Positions 4,989 to 60,963 of a DNA stretch of 64,000 nt are shown piece by piece. Each line of letters opens with the position of its first letter. The stretch's first letter is position 1. Source of the stretch: Sphingomonas panacis. GTDB lineage: Bacteria; Pseudomonadota; Alphaproteobacteria; Sphingomonadales; Sphingomonadaceae. The notes under the pieces are model-generated. The model saw only the letters and a list, made by a program, of their open reading frames with translations, had not been told where the DNA came from and made no database searches. The stretch covers positions 3,133,501 to 3,197,500 of the forward strand of contig NZ_CP014168.1 of NCBI RefSeq assembly GCF_001717955.1, read 5' to 3'. Made by a program: the position numbers and the translations under genes.

Positions 4989-7436
4989 TCAGCCTTCGAT
5001 CTTCGAGAAGTCGGCAACGCTGTGGACCGCCGTGCGGACTCGCGCGAGCAGCTTGAGGCGTGCGTCGCGCTTGGCGGGATCGGCATCATTGACGATGACG
5101 GTCTCGAAAAACGCGTCGATCGGCGCGCGCAGCGTGGCGAGCGCCGCCATCGCTGCCTCGAAATCCTCATGCGCGACGGCATCGGCGGCGGCCGGCTCGG
5201 CCGCGTCGAGCGCGGCGAGGAGGGCGGCCTCGGCGGGTTCGGGCGCATATCTCGCTTCGTCTCCCCTCCCTGGAAGGGAGGGGGCGGGGGTGGGTTCGCC
5301 TTGGGAACGCGCGTCGGTCGCCTCGGGGCGACCCACCCCCAGCCCCTCCCTTCCAGGGAGGGGAGCAGGTTGCGCGAACCCCTCCTTCTTCAGAATATTC
5401 GCCGCCCGCTTGTACCCGGCGAGCAGATTTGCCCCATCCTCGGTGTCGACGAACGCCTGCAACGCATGGACGCGTGCAAGCAGCCGGACGAGATCGTCCT
5501 CCCCGCCGAGCGCGAACACCGCGTCGATCAGGTCGTGACGGACGCCGGCTTCGCGTTGCTGGACTTTGAGGCGGTCGGCGAAGAAGGTAACTGCCTCAAA
5601 CCCAATATCTCGTGAGCGTTTGAATCTAATTTCAAACGCCTCAGAATATTTAGCGTCAGCCTGCGTCCGAAGTTGGCCGAACATATCAATCGCGACGTCA
5701 GAACCTGTGCGGACGAATCTGATTAATTGTGTAAATGCGTCAGCAGCCGCAGTGTTCGGCTCTGGTAGACTGTCGAAGGGCGAGCGCCAGGCAGCGTGAG
5801 CAATGATCGGCATCAGCTCCATCCGCAGGTTATTGGCTTGCAAGAGCCGGATAGCTGCCAAAGCAGCACGGCGTAGCGCGAAGGGATCTTTAGAACCGGT
5901 CGGTTTCTCATCGATCGCGAAAAAGCAGGCAATCGTATCCAGCTTATCCGCCAGCGATACCGCCACCGTCACCGGATCGGTCGGCACGTCGTCGCCCTGG
6001 CCGACCGGCTTGTAGTGATCGCGGATCGCCGCCGCGACGCGCGGATCTTCGCCTTGCGCGGCGGCGTAATAGCCGCCCATCAGGCCCTGCAATTCGGGGA
6101 ACTCGCCGACCATGCCGGTGACGAGATCGGCCTTCGCCAGCCGTGCGGCGCGCTCGGCGAGATCGGCCAGATTTCCCTCTCCCCTTGTGGGAGAGGGAGG
6201 GAGCGACGCAGTCGCGGAAGGGTGAGGGGGCGTGAGGCTCGGAACGTCCCCCTCACCCTTCCCACTCGCTGAAGCGAGCGGGCCCCTTCCCTCTCCCACA
6301 GGGGGAGAGGGAGATTTGACGATGCCCTCTTCCACCAGCCAGCGCGCCAATTTCGCGACGCGCTCGACCTTGTCGGCGACGGTGCCGAGCTTTTCGTGGA
6401 ACACGATCCGGTCGAGCTTCGCCGCCTGTTCGGCGAGCGGCACCTTCAAATCGGTCTCGTAGAAGAACTTCGCGTCGCTGAGCCGCGCCGCGAGCACCTT
6501 CTGGTTGCCCTCGACGATCTTCGCGCCGCCGTCGACCGCGTCGATATTGGCGGTGCAGACGAATGCGTTGGCGAGGCTCCCGCTGGCGTCGCGGCACACG
6601 AAATATTTCTGGTTCACCCGCGCGGTGAGCTGGATCACCTCGGGCGGAACGCTGAGGAACGCTTCGTCGAAGCGCCCGAGCAGCGGCACCGGCCATTCGG
6701 TGAGCCCGGCGTTCTCGGCCAGCAGGCCCTCGTCGCGGACCAGCTCAAGGTTGGCCTTGCGCGCCGCCATCGTCGCGCCGAGCGCGATGATCTGGCGGCG
6801 CTCGTCCTGATCGACGACGACGTGGCAGGCGCGCAGTTTCTCGACATAGTCGCTCGCCGAGCCGATCGTGATGACGCCGGGATGGTGGGAGCGATGCCCG
6901 ACCGTCGCCGCGCCCGCGACGACGCCGGCGATCTCGCATGGCACGACATCCTCGCCGAACAAGGCGACGATGCCTTGCAGCGGGCGCACCCAGCGCAGCG
7001 ATTCCATCGTCAACGACGCCTCGCCCCAGCGCATCGACTTGGGCCAGGGGAAGGCGCGGATCACGGCGGGGATCGCTTCGGCGAGCACGTCGGCGGTGGC
7101 GCGGCCGGGTTTGTCGATCACCGCGAAGAACACGCCGTCCCGCTCGACGAGCTGCTCGCGCGTCAGCCCGGTCTTGCGCAGGAAGCCGTCGAGCGCCTGC
7201 GGCGGCGCGCTGTTCTTCGGCCCCTTGGTTTCTTCCGAAACCGCGGCGGTCGCCTGCGGCAGATCGCGCGCGATCAGCGCGAGCCGGCGCGGCGTCGCGA
7301 AGGTGACGATCACGTCGGTGTGGAGGCCGGATTTCGCCAGCTCGGCCGCGAACAGCCGCGCGAGATCGTCGCGCGCCTTGTCCTGCATGCGCGCGGGGAT
7401 TTCCTCCGAGCGGAGTTCGAGGAGGAAGTCGGTCAT
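4989..7436 (-). CDS. glyS: glycyl-tRNA synthetase beta subunit carrying two palindromic insertions
   Basis: Beta subunit of the alpha2beta2 glycyl-tRNA synthetase; contributes tRNA binding while GlyQ carries the catalytic core. The frame is open for 815 residues, well above the roughly 690 of E. coli. The start MTDFLLELRSEEIPARMQ and blocks such as FVQL-free ARVNQKYFVCRD, EFPELQGLMGGYYA and DPFALRRAALAAIRLL are typical. Two stretches do not belong to the family. Residues ~376-421 (DNA 6175-6311) and ~691-725 (DNA 5261-5365) are Pro/Gly/Ser/Glu-rich peptides translated from long inverted repeats, yet the frame continues through both. The ATG at 7436 has GGAGAG upstream. A low-GC patch lies at 5581-5940. 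It follows glyQ, separated by two more palindromes. Confidence 0.95.
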   Translation of the reverse strand: MTDFLLELRSEEIPARMQDKARDDLARLFAAELAKSGLHTDVIVTFATPRRLALIARDLPQATAAVSEETKGPKNSAPPQALDGFLRKTGLTREQLVERDGVFFAVIDKPGRATADVLAEAIPAVIRAFPWPKSMRWGEASLTMESLRWVRPLQGIVALFGEDVVPCEIAGVVAGAATVGHRSHHPGVITIGSASDYVEKLRACHVVVDQDERRQIIALGATMAARKANLELVRDEGLLAENAGLTEWPVPLLGRFDEAFLSVPPEVIQLTARVNQKYFVCRDASGSLANAFVCTANIDAVDGGAKIVEGNQKVLAARLSDAKFFYETDLKVPLAEQAAKLDRIVFHEKLGTVADKVERVAKLARWLVEEGIVKSPSPPVGEGRGPLASASGKGEGDVPSLTPPHPSATASLPPSPTRGEGNLADLAERAARLAKADLVTGMVGEFPELQGLMGGYYAAAQGEDPRVAAAIRDHYKPVGQGDDVPTDPVTVAVSLADKLDTIACFFAIDEKPTGSKDPFALRRAALAAIRLLQANNLRMELMPIIAHAAWRSPFDSLPEPNTAAADAFTQLIRFVRTGSDVAIDMFGQLRTQADAKYSEAFEIRFKRSRDIGFEAVTFFADRLKVQQREAGVRHDLIDAVFALGGEDDLVRLLARVHALQAFVDTEDGANLLAGYKRAANILKKEGFAQPAPLPGREGLGVGRPEATDARSQGEPTPAPSLPGRGDEARYAPEPAEAALLAALDAAEPAAADAVAHEDFEAAMAALATLRAPIDAFFETVIVNDADPAKRDARLKLLARVRTAVHSVADFSKIEG
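5261..5365. repeat. palindromic element A inside glyS
   Basis: A 105-base (35-codon) element whose arms 5261-5300 and 5325-5365 begin CTCCCCTCCCTGGAAGGG and its complement and match at nearly all of the first 38 positions. On the glyS strand it encodes a low-complexity peptide containing LPGREGLGVG and APSLPGRG without a stop codon. Its length is a multiple of three, so it is frame-neutral. No transposase or clear target duplication is visible. Confidence 0.85.
6175..6311. repeat. palindromic element B inside glyS
   Basis: About 137 bases bounded by CCCTCTCCCC and its complement, with a second internal pairing (GAAGGGTGAGGGGG against CCCCCTCACCCTTC). AGATTT occurs directly on both sides (6169-6174 and 6312-6317), which could be a target-site duplication. 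It adds roughly 46 residues, including SPSPPVGEGRGPL and PPSPTRGEG, to GlyS between the conserved segments ending EEGIVK and starting NLADLAERAARLAKADL. Exact boundaries are uncertain by a few bases. Confidence 0.82.
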
Positions 7437-7548: not shown

Positions 7549-7578
7549 AGCGGTTTACGTAAACGGGGTGGCTCGAAA

Positions 7579-7668
7579 CCGTCTCCCCGGCGCAGGCCGG
7601 GGCCGCTGCGTTACTGAACGAACCGGGTGCCCCATACACAGCGGCCCCGGCCTGCGCCGGAGCGACGG
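7579..7668. repeat. palindromic element D between glyS and glyQ
   Basis: Arms 7579-7608 and 7639-7668, built on CCGGCGCAGGCCGGGG, agree at 28 of 30 positions and enclose 30 bases. It starts 13 bases downstream of the glyQ stop. Each arm is itself partly self-complementary, so strong RNA structure is expected at the end of glyQ; it could act as a terminator, attenuator or processing signal. Confidence 0.83.
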
Positions 7669-7680
7669 TTTTGAGGGTCA

Positions 7681-8601
7681 TCACGCGGCCCACCCGTTCT
7701 TCTCCATCCACGACGCACACGCGCCCTTCGCGAGATCGCGCACGCGGCCCATATACGCCTGCCGTTCCGCCACCGAGATCACCCCGCGCGCTTGCAGCAG
7801 GTTGAAGACGTGGCTCGCCTTGATCGCCTGTTCGTAGGCGGGGATCGGCAGCTTCGCCTCCAGACAGCTTTCGCATTCGGCGGTGGCCTTGCGGAACAGG
7901 TCGAACAGCCGCTCGGTATCGGCGACCTCGAAGTTCCACGTGCTCATCTGGCGCTCGTTCTCCAGGAACACGTCGCCATAGGTCATCTGCGGTTGGTTGC
8001 CCTCGGCATCGTTGAAGGCGAGATCGTACACGCTGTCCTTGTTCTGGAGGTACAGCGCGAGCCGCTCCAGCCCATAGGTCAGTTCGCCCGCGACGGGCTT
8101 GCAGTCATAGCCGCCCATCTGCTGGAAATAGGTGAACTGCGTGACCTCCATGCCATCGCACCACACTTCCCAGCCAAGCCCCCATGCGCCGAGCGTCGGG
8201 CTTTCCCAATCGTCCTCGACGAAGCGGATGTCGTGGCGGGTGAAATCGATGCCGATCGCGGCGAGGCTGCCGAGGTACAGCTCCTGCAAGTCGGGCGGGC
8301 TCGGCTTCAGGATCACCTGATATTGGTAATAATGCTGGAGCCGGTTGGGGTTCTCGCCATAGCGGCCGTCGGTGGGGCGGCGGCACGGCTGGACGAACGC
8401 GGCGTTCCACGGGTTCGGGCCGAGCGCGCGCAGCGTCGTCGCCGGGTGGAAGGTGCCGGCGCCCATCTCCATGTCATACGGTTGCAGGATCAGGCAGCCA
8501 TGCGCGCTCCAGTAATCGTGAAGCGTCAGGATCATGCGCTGGAAGCTCAGCGGCCCGCCGGGAGCGGGGCGGGCGGGAGCGGAGAGGTGGCTTGCGGCCA
8601 A
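7681..8601 (-). CDS. glyQ: glycyl-tRNA synthetase alpha subunit
   Basis: Catalytic subunit charging tRNA-Gly with glycine. The 306-residue product carries the class II core with [74 protein letters not shown] and [10 protein letters not shown], matching E. coli GlyQ nearly end to end (303 residues). No ATG fits the N-terminus: the internal Met at residue 23 sits inside the conserved first helix. The TTG at 8601 with GAGGA eight bases upstream is therefore the likely start. It is followed by glyS after two palindromic repeats, so the pair may be co-transcribed. It is divergent from the TraB/GumN gene at 8722. Confidence 0.96.
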
Positions 8602-33307: not shown

Positions 33308-35938
33308 ATGCGTCACGTCACTCGCGCGGCGGTCAGCATAATCGCGCTTTGCACCGCTACCACTGTACACGCCAGAATTCAGCCGCAAGCCCAACCGGGC
33401 GGCGACCCGGCGAACCCGCCGGCGGCGGCTCAGCCGGCCGAGACCGGCGGCGTCCCCGACATCGTCGTCACTGCGCAGAAGCGATCGGAGAACGTCCAGT
33501 CGGTGCCGATCGCGATCAGCGCCTTCACCGCGAACGCCCTGCAGGAACGGGGCGTCGGCAGCATCGCCCAATTGTCCGGCCTGGCACCCAACGTCAATCT
33601 CGATGCGGGAACACCGTTCTCGGGATCGCCCTCGGTGCTGTCGGCCTATATCCGCGGCATCGGATCGGACGATTTCGCGTTCAACATCGATCCGGGTGTC
33701 GGCATCTATGTCGACGGCGTCTATCTCGCCCGCTCGGTCGGGGCGAACCAGGATCTGCTCGATGTCGAACGGGTCGAGGTGCTCAAGGGGCCGCAGGGCA
33801 CGCTGTTCGGGCGCAACACGATCGGCGGCGCGATCTCCGTGGTGACGCGCGATCCCGGCGACACGTTTCGCTTCAAGGCAGACGTGACGACCGGTAGCTA
33901 CGGCCTGCTCCAGGCGCGTGGCACCGCCGATCTGCCGATTACCGACGATCTCGCCGGCGCGCTGACCTTCGGCGTGAAGACGCGCACCGGGTATATGAAA
34001 CGGATTCCCTATCCCGATCCGCTTGCGGCGAACAGCGCGAGCTACACCGGCTTTCCATCATCGGGCTATTCGTCGCCGAGCGACGAGGGCGGCGACAACA
34101 ACTGGAACCTGCGCGGCAAACTGAAATGGAAGGGCGAACACGTCACGGTGACGCTGACGGGCGACTACACGCGCGAAAATTCCACCGGACTCGCCAACAC
34201 ACTGCTCGGCACGGCGGGCAATGTTCCCGGCAATTTCGGGGGCACGGCCAACCTGCCGGGCACCGCGTTCGACCCGACCGGCACGACCGGCTTCCTGTTC
34301 GCCGGCCTGTACAATTTCTGCATCGGCGCGAACACCGCGCAGATCGCGGCGCGAAACGCCCAGGCGCTGTGCGGCGTTCGCGGCACCCAGTACAACACGG
34401 CGCTGCACCAGCAACCGATCGCGGGCGTCAACGTCGACGGTAATCCGAACAACAACCTGCTGCCGTACGACAACCGCTTCCTGACCGGCAACAAGGACAC
34501 CAGCTACGCCACCGGCAATGACTTCTCGCGGATGACGAGCTACGGCTTCGCTGGAACGGTGGAATGGAACCCGGCGCCGAACACGACGCTGAAGTCGATC
34601 ACCGCGTATCGCCAGCTCGACTGGCGCTCGGGCGTCGATGGCGACGGCTCGCCGCTCAACTTCCTTCAGCTCAGTTTCGCGATGCACCAGTGGCAGTTCA
34701 GCCAGGAGGTGCAACTGCTCGGCACGTTGCTCGATGACAAGCTGCACTATGTGCTGGGCGGCTATTACTTCAAGGAAAAGGGCGGCCTGCACGACTATGT
34801 CACGTTCGCGGAAGGTCTGCTCCAGGTCGATGGCCCCAACGCCCTGGAGACGCAGAATTATGCCGGATTCGGGCAGATCGACTATCGCCCGATCCCGCTG
34901 CTCGGCGTGACGCTGGGGGGCCGGTACACTCGCGAGGACAAACAGTTCGAGGGTGGCCAGCAGGATTTGAACGGGTTCAACTACAAGCTGTTCGGGTGCA
35001 GCGACCCGCAGGGTAACATTACGCCGAACGGCCCGTTTCCGCTCGCTCCGGTGACGTGTCAGCAGGGCACCGGATACCCCGATCCCGCCAACCCGATCCG
35101 CGTCTATGCGCCGGGCGTCAACACGCAGAGTTTCCAGAACTTCTCGCCCAAGGTCGGCGTCCAGCTTTACCCGATCGATCGGGTCATGGCGTATGCGAGT
35201 TGGTCGAAGGGCTACAAGACCGGCGGCTGGACGACGCGCCTCACCAACCCCCAACCCACCGCGCAGCCGTTCGGACCCGAAAAGGCGACGACGTGGGAAA
35301 TCGGCATCAAGTCGCAGTTCCTCGATCGCAAGCTGCAACTGAACGCCGCCGCCTTCACCACCGAGTATCAGGGTATCCAGCTCAACTTCCAGCAAGGCAC
35401 CTCGCCGACGATCCGCAACGCCGGCGACGCCCGTATTCGCGGTGTCGAGCTGGAGGCGGTGGTGGCGCCGGCGCGCGGTCTGGTCGTCAATGCCTCGGTC
35501 GGCTTCATCGACGCGCGCTATACCTCGGTGTTGCCGGGCGTCCTCGCGGTCAGCGCGCCCAATGCGTTCCAGGCGGGCACCTTCGTCGGTGCGGATCTGC
35601 CCAAGACTCCCAAATGGAAGATCAACGTCAGCCCGCGCTACGAAGCGCATCTGGGCAACGGCGCCACCATGATCCTGCTCGCGGACTGGACCCATGCGAC
35701 CAGCGTATGGAACGATGCGCAGCGCACGTACCTGCTGCGCCGCCCCACCATCGACGTCTTCAACGCCAGCGTGGCTTATCGCGAACCGGGCGGGAAGTGG
35801 ACGCTGACCGCCGGCGGCACCAACATCACCGGCAACCGCTATCTGACGACGGGCAATGAGAACATCAGCGACGGGGTGTTCTTCGGCACCTATAGCCGGC
35901 CCGCCGAATGGTATGTCCGTCTCGGCGTGAGTTTCTGA
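33308..35938 (+). CDS. TonB-dependent outer-membrane receptor (876 aa)
   Basis: Energy-dependent uptake porin of the outer membrane. It has a signal peptide (AAVSIIALCTATTVHA), a linker, the TonB box region DIVVTAQKR, a plug domain (VPIAISAFTANALQERGVGSIAQLSGLAPNV... RVEVLKGPQGTLFGRNTIGGAISVVTR), and a 22-strand barrel ending in Phe (EWYVRLGVSF). The style is that of sphingomonad receptors for small organic compounds and not the long carbohydrate type. GGGGAGGAAAGA precedes the ATG. It is followed after one base by the alcohol dehydrogenase, so receptor and enzymes form one operon, probably under the AraC regulator upstream. Confidence 0.95.
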   Translation: MRHVTRAAVSIIALCTATTVHARIQPQAQPGGDPANPPAAAQPAETGGVPDIVVTAQKRSENVQSVPIAISAFTANALQERGVGSIAQLSGLAPNVNLDAGTPFSGSPSVLSAYIRGIGSDDFAFNIDPGVGIYVDGVYLARSVGANQDLLDVERVEVLKGPQGTLFGRNTIGGAISVVTRDPGDTFRFKADVTTGSYGLLQARGTADLPITDDLAGALTFGVKTRTGYMKRIPYPDPLAANSASYTGFPSSGYSSPSDEGGDNNWNLRGKLKWKGEHVTVTLTGDYTRENSTGLANTLLGTAGNVPGNFGGTANLPGTAFDPTGTTGFLFAGLYNFCIGANTAQIAARNAQALCGVRGTQYNTALHQQPIAGVNVDGNPNNNLLPYDNRFLTGNKDTSYATGNDFSRMTSYGFAGTVEWNPAPNTTLKSITAYRQLDWRSGVDGDGSPLNFLQLSFAMHQWQFSQEVQLLGTLLDDKLHYVLGGYYFKEKGGLHDYVTFAEGLLQVDGPNALETQNYAGFGQIDYRPIPLLGVTLGGRYTREDKQFEGGQQDLNGFNYKLFGCSDPQGNITPNGPFPLAPVTCQQGTGYPDPANPIRVYAPGVNTQSFQNFSPKVGVQLYPIDRVMAYASWSKGYKTGGWTTRLTNPQPTAQPFGPEKATTWEIGIKSQFLDRKLQLNAAAFTTEYQGIQLNFQQGTSPTIRNAGDARIRGVELEAVVAPARGLVVNASVGFIDARYTSVLPGVLAVSAPNAFQAGTFVGADLPKTPKWKINVSPRYEAHLGNGATMILLADWTHATSVWNDAQRTYLLRRPTIDVFNASVAYREPGGKWTLTAGGTNITGNRYLTTGNENISDGVFFGTYSRPAEWYVRLGVSF

Positions 35939-58431: not shown

Positions 58432-60963
58432 TCAGCGGAACCGTGCACCGACGCGAACGCCATAGGTGCGCGGCGCTTCGTAAGACCCGATGTAGATGCC
58501 GCTCGCGGCGACCTGTGACACCCCGAACACACGGCGGAAGTCTTCGAGATTGTTGACGAATCCCGTCACGAACCAGCGCTCGTCGGTCGGCCCGAACGTG
58601 ATCGACGCGTTGGAGGTCGTGCCGGCCTTGGCGTAGATATAGGACGAATAGCTCGGGTCTTCCTGCGCGCGCCCGCGGTAGCGCGTGCCAGCCTGAAGCA
58701 CGATCTTATAGTCGCCCAGCGGTATCGTCTGTTGCCCGTTGACGTTGAACGACCATTCCGGCGTGTTGACCGCCGGCTGGCCCGAACAGTCGATATGATA
58801 CACTGCTTCGGTCACGCCGTTGATGACGCTGTTGCCGGCCTGCGCGCCGCACGTCGTCGGGGGCGGCGCGCCCTGATTGGGCACGTCATATTGGAAGCTG
58901 TCGTAATTGGTGTGGACATATTGCACGCTGCCCGACAGCAGCGTGTTGCGGGTGACGAGGAATTGCGCGTCGGCATCGACGCCATAGATCGTGCTCTTGC
59001 CGACATTGCGGGTCAGGAACACCGTGGTCGGCGGGTTGCCGAGATCATATCCGAACGTGCTGAACTGCTGGTTGCGGTATTTCCAGTAGAAGCCCTCGAT
59101 GTTGAACTGCACCGTGTTGTTGAAGAAGCGGTTCTTGCTGCCGATCGTCCAGGCGGCGATCGTCTCCGGCTTGTAGCTTTCCAGCCCCTGCGCGAACGCG
59201 AAGCCGCCGGCGTGATAGCCGGTCTCGTAGCTGACATAGGCCATCGACGTGTTCGAAAACGCATATTCCGCACCAAGCCGGTAGGTGAACTTCGAATTGG
59301 TGAGACCGGAATTGATCGCGGTCTTCGCGTTCAGCACGAAGGGCGCGGTCTGCGATCCGCCGAAGGCGGGCGGCAAAGCGAAGAGCGGCACGTTCGTCAC
59401 CGGAACGCCGCGCGCCGCATAGAAGGCGCGCAGCGATGCGGCGTCGGGAACGAGCGGGATGAACGGCACGGTCGGGCACTGGTTTGGCGGGAAGGACGCC
59501 GGGTTGCCGCAGAACAGGATGTAGGTGTCGCTGGTTCCGTCGAAGCGCTTCTTGTCCTGCGTGTATCGGCCGGCGGCGGTCAGGCTGAGCTTGCTGGTCG
59601 CATGCCACGTCAGCTTGCCGAAGCCCGCGTAGGAATCGGTCGTGGTGGTGAAATTCTGGTACGGCACCAGCACGAACTGCGAGAAATAGGTGTTCGACCG
59701 GATGTGCTCGCCGAAATAATAGCCGCCGACCACGAAATCGAGCGGGCCGGTCTTGCCGGCATAGCGGACCTCGCCGCTGAACTGCCGGTCCTTCTCGTGG
59801 GTGCCAGCGCCGTTCATGCCAGGGGTGATGAGATTGTCGAGCCGGGATTCACGGTACGCCGGCACCACGGTCAGCGTGCCCGGTCCGACCTGCCAGTTGG
59901 TTTCGCTGAGAATGCCCCAGAAATCGTTGTTGTTGTACGGCTGCCCCTGCACCACCTCGCCGGCACGGCCCGCCTGCGCGATGTAATGCGACGCGAGATA
60001 GGCTTGCGATTTCGGGCTGAAGATGCCCTCGCCGGGGGCGTAATTGGTCGGGCTGTAGCTGTAGCCGCTGAAACCGGTCCGGCCGAAGATCGGCGTCGCG
60101 GTGCCGACGTAGGTGGCGAACAGCTTGGCGCCGCCCTGATGCGCATAGTCCGCCGATATGCGCGTGTTCAGCGTCGGGGTGAGTTCGGCATAAACCTGAG
60201 CGCGGGCGCCATATTCGTGCTGGTCGTTGGTGCCGTCGTTGTAGAACGGATCGTGCGAGGCATAATTCCCGGCGAGGCGGAATGCGCCGGAGGTGCTGAT
60301 CGGCAGGTTCACCGCGGCCTGCGCGTTGACCGTGTTGTAATTGCCGTAACTCACCGTGCCATCGGCCGAAAGCGTGTCGAGTTGCGGGCGATTGGGGATC
60401 ACGTTGATCGCGCCGCCCGTGGCGTTGCGCCCGTACAGCGTGCCCTGCGGCCCTTTCAGAACCTCGACCCGCTGGAGATCGTAGAAGCTGCCGCTCGTCG
60501 AGGAGGGGCGGCCGATGTAGACGCCGTCGTAGTTGAACGCGACCGCGGGGTCCGAATAGGCGTTTACCGTGGTGTTGCCGACGCCGCGCACCACGAAAGT
60601 GGTGTAGGAGCCGCCAGTGCTGGCGGCGACCAGCGCAGGCACCACCCGCGAGAGATCCTCAGGACGGGTGACCGCCTGCTGCACCAGATCCTCGGGCTTG
60701 ATGACGCTGATCGCGATCGGCGCGCGCTGCGCGCTTTCCGAGACGCGCTGCGCGGTGACGACGATATCCTCGAGCCCTTCGGCGCTGGTATCGATGTGGG
60801 TGCTGTTGGGCGCGCCGCCTTGCGGTGAATTGGCGGCGGGAAGCGATTGCGGCACCGGCGCCGCGTCTCCGCTTGCGGACGTGGGCGGCGGCGTTTGGGC
60901 ATGAGCGGGCGTGGCCATCGCCAGGACGCTGGCCGAGGCAAGCAGCAGGATTGCGCGATTCAT
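58432..60963 (-). CDS. TonB-dependent receptor of the catabolic cluster (843 aa)
   Basis: Outer-membrane receptor with signal peptide ending ATPAHA-Q, a Pro/Ala/Ser linker, TonB box DIVVTAQRVSE, plug (RAPIAISVIKPEDLVQQAVTRPEDLSRVVPAL... RVEVLKGPQGTLYGRNATGGAINVI) and a barrel closing with GVRVGARFR. It belongs to the same small-molecule receptor style as the gene at 33308. The ATG at 60963 sits six bases after GGAGGGG. It is upstream of and co-directional with the ring-cleavage genes, and divergent from the MetE-like gene, so it probably imports the substrate of the whole cluster. Confidence 0.95.
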   Translation of the reverse strand: MNRAILLLASASVLAMATPAHAQTPPPTSASGDAAPVPQSLPAANSPQGGAPNSTHIDTSAEGLEDIVVTAQRVSESAQRAPIAISVIKPEDLVQQAVTRPEDLSRVVPALVAASTGGSYTTFVVRGVGNTTVNAYSDPAVAFNYDGVYIGRPSSTSGSFYDLQRVEVLKGPQGTLYGRNATGGAINVIPNRPQLDTLSADGTVSYGNYNTVNAQAAVNLPISTSGAFRLAGNYASHDPFYNDGTNDQHEYGARAQVYAELTPTLNTRISADYAHQGGAKLFATYVGTATPIFGRTGFSGYSYSPTNYAPGEGIFSPKSQAYLASHYIAQAGRAGEVVQGQPYNNNDFWGILSETNWQVGPGTLTVVPAYRESRLDNLITPGMNGAGTHEKDRQFSGEVRYAGKTGPLDFVVGGYYFGEHIRSNTYFSQFVLVPYQNFTTTTDSYAGFGKLTWHATSKLSLTAAGRYTQDKKRFDGTSDTYILFCGNPASFPPNQCPTVPFIPLVPDAASLRAFYAARGVPVTNVPLFALPPAFGGSQTAPFVLNAKTAINSGLTNSKFTYRLGAEYAFSNTSMAYVSYETGYHAGGFAFAQGLESYKPETIAAWTIGSKNRFFNNTVQFNIEGFYWKYRNQQFSTFGYDLGNPPTTVFLTRNVGKSTIYGVDADAQFLVTRNTLLSGSVQYVHTNYDSFQYDVPNQGAPPPTTCGAQAGNSVINGVTEAVYHIDCSGQPAVNTPEWSFNVNGQQTIPLGDYKIVLQAGTRYRGRAQEDPSYSSYIYAKAGTTSNASITFGPTDERWFVTGFVNNLEDFRRVFGVSQVAASGIYIGSYEAPRTYGVRVGARFR

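Follow-up and report, generated by a model that had tools for sequence, protein, structure and literature searches.

The glyS gene of Sphingomonas panacis raises the question of how the gene for an essential synthetase subunit comes to carry a long inverted repeat and still encode a complete product. The repeat, here called element A, lies in a 64,000-nucleotide stretch of DNA (the window) that is part of a 5.0-Mb contig, and the features discussed are listed in Table 1. The preliminary description held that a 105-base inverted repeat sits inside glyS and preserves its reading frame, and both points are borne out. Element A (5261-5365) consists of two 35 nt arms, 94% complementary, around a 35 nt spacer, for a total of 105 nt. 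The minus-strand GlyS frame crosses it without a stop, starting at an ATG at 7436 and giving a product of 815 aa, with a Pfam domain on each side of the element (PF02092 before it and DALR_1 after). Coordinates place the element at GlyS residues ~691-726, and alignment delimits a variable segment at 689-724. The nearest named GlyS is that of S. populi (85%). RNA folding of element A gives a predicted -94.3 kcal/mol (z -9.2), a value equalled by 0 of 200 shuffles. Element B, the second palindrome of glyS, belongs to a family different from that of A, and the fold of 6162-6324, which contains it, is predicted at -118.1 kcal/mol (z -11.3). None of 30 Rfam matches with E<=1 reached the gathering score of its own family, and those on the elements, mostly to miRNA families, were rejected as chance hairpin similarity. 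Another palindrome (7572-7675) separates glyS from glyQ, and one more is found at 884-1052, near an ORF (296-1015) that, judged by eye, we take to resemble peptidyl-tRNA hydrolase. Elsewhere in the window, two distant inverted similarities (82 nt at 84% and 70 nt at 74%) occur at 33458-33841 and 60400-60768 and might reflect related genes that face opposite ways.

Table 1. Features of the glyS region, in window coordinates.
Feature	Coordinates	Strand	Description or basis
Palindromic element A inside glyS	5261..5365	-	105 nt, in-frame peptide ...PAPLPGREGLGVGRPEATDARSQGEPTPAPSLPGRG...
Arm 1 of element A	5261..5295	.	internal short hairpin CCCTCCCTGGAAGGGAGGG
Arm 2 of element A	5331..5365	.	inverted-repeat search
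glyS, glycyl-tRNA synthetase beta subunit, 815 aa	4989..7436	-	ORF and Pfam
glyQ, glycyl-tRNA synthetase alpha subunit	7681..8601	-	ORF as listed
Palindromic element B, other family, at GlyS site B	6168..6318	-	PSPPVGEGRGPLASASGKGEG...PPHPSATASLPPSPTRGEG
GlyS site C, residues ~552-605	5622..5783	-	non-palindromic AT-rich hypervariable block

Element A is dispersed. A search of the S. panacis genome for further copies, which the preliminary description had proposed, located the element at no fewer than 17 distinct places, all on the main contig, each a match over at least 91 of the 117 query bases; this count is a lower bound because 40 of 73 candidates were scored. The element is present in 23 of 61 Sphingomonas genomes, that of S. 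panacis included (E<=1e-12). Three of the 17 copies lie in frame between recognised domains, in GlyS, in the E2 of a 2-oxoacid dehydrogenase and in HrpB. The 16 places outside glyS overlap 36 ORFs of 200 aa or longer; Pfam was scanned on 30 of these (and separately on glyS), and a recognised domain on both sides was found for none of the other 14 copies, some of which directly precede a recognised domain (e.g., the accA and gcvP copies). Element A copies are mostly outside recognised genes, and the intragenic ones are a minority (3/17). A codon-based frame caller, correct in 198 of 265 test windows and missing the HrpB copy, called eight of 85 places in frame (six glyS copies from six genomes, the E2 copy and locus L170), in a sample biased to the glyS copy because it comes mostly from the top of the match listing. 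BLAST against plasmid and phage collections, with low-complexity masking, returned no match to element A, a weak null because the masking affects sequence of this kind.

Known marks of mobile repeats were sought at the ends of the element. Among 64 copies with both arm motifs, candidate target-site duplications of 3-8 nt occurred in at most two copies at any boundary tried, much as in the mismatched control. A CGTC tag was present at 6 of 128 outer 14-nt ends, with about 11 expected by chance, GTAG or CTAC likewise at 6 of 128, and GANTC, the mark of the Caulobacter CIR repeats, in 1 of the 17 S. panacis copies. No RAYT gene flanked by element A was found in the genome, which holds one Y1_Tnp match. 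A RAYT-driven REPIN was rejected as the class of the element, since this sole Y1_Tnp gene has IS200-like ends and stands apart from the A copies; one short partial motif occurs in its vicinity. Mobility is therefore argued entirely from the dispersal of the copies and from the swaps described below, because neither a convincing target-site duplication nor a tie to a RAYT was seen.

GlyS has three loops that host palindromes: S1 (near residue 284), B (374-420) and A (689-724). An alignment was made of 172 GlyS proteins, 119 of them from the database and 53 from genus loci, leaving out L059, missed by the pattern, and L067, truncated by its contig. Lengths in it are 7-147 residues at site A and 1-59 at site B, and both sites occur empty, with fewer than 20 residues at A in 40 of the 172 GlyS and at B in 26. 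Relatives have at site A either a linker of 7-19 residues or an unrelated palindrome. The short alleles at site A and the mixture of families in the remainder exclude the possibility, named in the preliminary description, that these residues are a conserved domain carried by all relatives. Its proposal of insertion at a loop fits the position of both sites in the Escherichia coli enzyme, in which site B maps between GlyRS-beta residues 378 and 384-385, and site A right after the NILAKS stretch that ends at 593. Outside the family, 40 alphaproteobacterial genomes have both flanking blocks among the matches listed. By hand count, the B linker measures 12-51 nt in 39 of them; in the remaining one (G239) it is 189 nt, and the second block there begins 18 residues late.

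Different families replace one another at the same site. Empty linkers alternate with A-type, B-type and CGTC-REP-type occupants and with five or more other kinds of peptide, and no fewer than eight peptide types occupy A and B, differing even among relatives that are 97-99% identical in the core. Family labels were assigned by regular expressions on peptide patterns, a few of them wrongly; the labels rest on peptide patterns because clustering by DNA score at a loose threshold merged most families. On the core tree of the 172 GlyS, at least 55 label changes are required at A and at least 72 at B, with 17 and 13 changes, respectively, between filled and empty. The core used for the tree, for pair identities and for pN/pS includes a shoulder of site C, which raises core divergence. 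The closest pairs with differing occupants share 96.8% (A) and 98.9% (B) core protein identity with the variable sites omitted, and P0010 and P0054, 98.4% identical in the core, have unlike occupants at site B. In six close named pairs, glyS DNA is mostly 90-100% identical per 30 codons, and identity drops at sites B and C and, in pairs with unlike families, at site A; a few further 30-codon segments are at 77-89%. Site A of L040 looks chimeric on comparison of its two halves, the left similar to another family and the right to the A-type, which suggests recombination. The site B inserts of L033 and L035 (99% identical) were considered as a case of recent homogenisation and dropped, their flanks being nearly as close.

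Additional modules are also present at these sites. A repeat-like module (GRSGSQPDLNR, QPDLNRPGDG) seems to be nested in palindromic GlyS inserts (L045, P0026 and P0073), and other extra stretches lie within the elements of L069 and of P0241, the S. panacis HrpB. Some lineages (L048, L065, L066, L080, L082, P0056 and P0060) repeatedly show at GlyS site A a non-palindromic module with a motif resembling IPQTGEEDPL (HIPETGEEDPL in P0056), either by itself or behind a palindrome.

We conclude, with a probability of about 0.86, that non-autonomous palindromes repeatedly colonise a few tolerant linkers, in the manner of Rickettsia palindromic elements (RPE). Element A would be one copy of a dispersed non-autonomous hairpin of ~105 nt, inserted in a GlyS linker with a length and frame that leave GlyS intact. 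The GlyS of Sphingomonadaceae would offer three tolerant loops (S1, B and A), each of which unrelated families enter, vacate and enter again, so that the occupant differs between close relatives. The ribosome would read straight through the RNA, and the peptide would form a disordered loop rich in Pro, Gly, Ala, Glu and Ser that the enzyme tolerates but does not need. Purging would remove copies that bear a stop, disrupt the frame, or add Cys and aromatic residues, and new occupants would arrive by insertion of a fresh copy or by recombination between copies.

Linkers of three further enzymes are filled in the same way. In the S. panacis E2, the element A copy occupies residues 120-157, between the lipoyl (8-80) and E3-binding (162-194) domains, and in HrpB it occupies residues 500-530, flanked by Helicase_C and CON_HrpB. 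A B-type element lies in frame in IleRS from two other genomes, and the S. panacis IleRS has a CGTC-bounded inverted pair at that position. E2, HrpB and IleRS each have one linker filled by similar peptides read in the same frame, with the E2 and HrpB sets consisting of proteins only and DNA palindromy known for the S. panacis copies alone. Such peptides might have been domesticated, with the host selecting them as useful flexible linkers from selfish raw material. The E2 linker segment is 33-71 residues long in 120 of 120 homologues (the best 120 of 8000 scored), 83 of which have a recognisable element motif, and filled segments consist of 64-69% P/G/A/E/S compared with 40% in the GlyS core, both in favour of this reading. 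Against it, E2 linkers are expected to be long and flexible in any case. Empty alleles are frequent in HrpB (segment of 11-61 residues in 120 HrpB; >=22 in 76 and <22 in 44, with the motif in 33) as they are in GlyS, and occupants are freely exchanged. The median pN/pS of GlyS inserts is 0.76, compared with 0.30 in the core, in 24 pairs that share a label and have 72% or more identity in insert DNA; these values point to weak constraint on the inserts. We therefore regard selection of the peptides by the host as doubtful.

Frame use is non-random, and an identical frame is used in unrelated hosts. The A-type frame PLPxREGxGVG was found in 22 of 120 database GlyS, 17 of 120 E2 and 5 of 120 HrpB, and the SLxGRGxGW frame in no member of the GlyS, E2 and HrpB sets. 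A strict PPWKGG/PPFQGG pattern matched 0 of 414 proteins; a looser one gave 10, 5, 5 and 0 matches in four protein sets, and these are attributed to a separate PFRGG family. Locus L170 has PPWKGG, the avoided frame, in an ORF whose sole domain match (NAD_binding_7) is upstream, and by its sequence may be an in-frame copy counter to the frame bias. The 62 copies not called genic have lengths distributed 22/18/22 modulo 3, with the three frames open in 97, 67 and 97 of 124 orientations, and the measurable glyS copies are all multiples of three (4/4). Across 55 palindromic GlyS inserts, the used frame encodes 0 Cys and 1.31 aromatic residues per 100 aa, compared with 2.55 and 4.15 in the alternative frames, 59 of 110 of which are open and 51 of 110 of which hold a stop. 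Cys is not strictly absent, because filled sites of the 172 GlyS contain 0.03-0.05 Cys per 100 aa and those of HrpB 0.21. No stop inside GlyS was present among the rows listed, though CDS extraction itself favours open frames.

The palindrome could instead be retained for a role of the nucleic acid itself, in mRNA stability, translational pausing, the GlyQ:GlyS ratio or DNA structure. The strong predicted folds of the message would suit such a role, as would the further palindrome between glyS and glyQ, but we consider it improbable, given that empty alleles are common, that families are interchangeable at the same loops, and that E2, HrpB and IleRS show the same phenomenon. It is slightly less probable still that the hairpin is skipped, by ribosomal bypass or removal from the RNA, so that the protein never includes it. 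Hairpins with predicted energies of -94 and -118 kcal/mol are highly stable, and passages of PMC6649704 describe untranslated palindromes in coding genes of the mitochondria of the yeast Magnusiomyces capitatus. Against skipping, the GlyS ORFs are open across the inserts despite the stops in alternative frames, and neither the non-random frame nor the composition would be needed in a sequence that is skipped.

Palindromy was assessed across glyS genes by comparing each insert of at least 22 aa with six control segments of the same gene and length. Inserts exceeded all six controls in 25 of 30 cases at A and 35 of 37 at B, compared with 1 of 31 at site C and 0 of 2 at S1. An unbiased inverted-repeat scan of the 53 genus glyS CDSs returned 45 peaks, 32 at B and 13 at A with none elsewhere, and codon-shuffled versions of these CDSs returned none. 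In other Sphingomonadaceae genera (27 CDSs from 28 loci, L194 yielding no CDS), 19 peaks were found in 17 CDSs, and residue numbers place every one of them at B or A. The named set, which overlaps the unnamed sets (79 CDSs from 80 loci, L262 yielding no CDS), gave 61 peaks, of which 41 are at B, 18 at A and 2 at S1; the peaks fall in 47 of the 79 CDSs, the other 32 having none, and none appeared after shuffling; by inspection, a peak listed as other@387 was assigned to B and two near 300 to S1. The S1 peaks (near residue 284) are those of S. koreensis and N. naphthalenivorans. A tendency toward Pro, Gly and Ala in the linkers of GC-rich genomes would suit a low-complexity Pro/Gly linker that has simply drifted and is palindromic by accident, but this reading, to which we assign almost no probability, is refuted by the palindromy at A and B relative to the equally variable site C and by the homologous copies dispersed in the genome.

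Site C was rejected as a site of palindromic elements on the basis of its single insert above controls. It comprises ~50 residues with a median GC of 0.545 (31 genus loci), compared with 0.692 for the core (53 loci). The block has at least 35 residues in 134 of the 172 GlyS, forming 79 similarity clusters, and of 150 pairs of these proteins with 97% or more identity over selected core columns, 130 have unrelated site C blocks, while some distant species have a block in common. The block common to L039 and L047 has pN 0.016 and pS 0.415, and where two relatives have a block in common it looks, from such substitution counts, to be under purifying selection. A second copy of site C was not found in the S. 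panacis genome, nor was a plasmid match. Site C thus has the look of a hypervariable cassette that is exchanged within the gene of an essential enzyme.

The closest described counterparts of the proposed colonisation are RPE. Reportedly, work by Ogata et al. in 2002 and 2005 presented protein-coding palindromes first as a peculiarity of Rickettsia and then in Wolbachia. RPE and element A are both palindromes of 105-150 nt in several families, dispersed, and in some cases in frame in conserved genes: element A falls in the ~100-150-nt range and occurs at intergenic and intragenic places, with in-frame members of the A family in GlyS, E2 and HrpB and of other families in IleRS. The parallel with RPE drawn in the preliminary description holds up, as an analogy, in how the element appears to work (in frame, dispersed, several families, conserved hosts). 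We liken element A to RPE by description and do not claim it as an RPE member. The elements described here differ from RPE in lineage (Sphingomonadaceae), in their GC-rich arms, in the re-use of the same few loops by many families, and in the swaps between close relatives. An RPE-bearing gmk is described as translated and active in passages of PMC2229807 and PMC10969869.

That the lineage is a different one, as also proposed, stands for the Sphingomonas host and is tempered by earlier observations in the order. The species concerned are E. litoralis and S. alaskensis, which we take to be Sphingomonadales. Passages of Di Nocera et al. (2013; PMC3733652) describe CGTC/GTAG REPs within ORFs, including tRNA synthetases of these two species, so that REPs in sphingomonadalean tRNA synthetases were known in 2013, and also report REPs that X. 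campestris and X. oryzae carry at nearly the same position in recB. The part of its main text on intragenic REPs does not mention glyS by name. CGTC REPs and their dimers are known in sphingomonads, some of them inside ORFs, from the same passages (PMC3733652), and by inspection the PAKAG...PAFAG occupants of GlyS and the S. panacis IleRS insert have the CGTC-bounded form. Unlike these tagged REPs, element A has neither a CGTC nor a GTAG tag. REPIN/RAYT systems and MITEs resemble element A as non-autonomous inverted repeats in many copies, but element A lacks their tie to a RAYT and a convincing target-site duplication. Caulobacter CIRs, alphaproteobacterial repeats of ~110 bp, are likewise similar; in the relevant passages of PMC2229807 they carry GANTC, rare in element A, and are tabulated as lacking an open reading frame. 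Measured against the literature searched, what is apparently new is an A family that bears no tag, the sharing of three GlyS loops, the exchange of families among close relatives, and the parallel filling of linkers in E2, HrpB and IleRS.

A broader reading, which we offer tentatively and as something short of an even chance, is that selfish palindromes may provide Sphingomonadaceae with a standing supply of interchangeable disordered linkers for at least four enzymes (GlyS, IleRS, HrpB and E2), continually refilled and filtered by frame, with filling obligatory in E2. If so, part of the core proteome would be written by mobile DNA. The process known from Rickettsia and Wolbachia is displayed here on a large scale in a group with many named, cultured species. 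Because empty, filled and swapped alleles of an essential enzyme exist among its close relatives, movement of the elements, choice of frame, and whether the peptides are neutral or useful would be testable by ordinary sphingomonad genetics.
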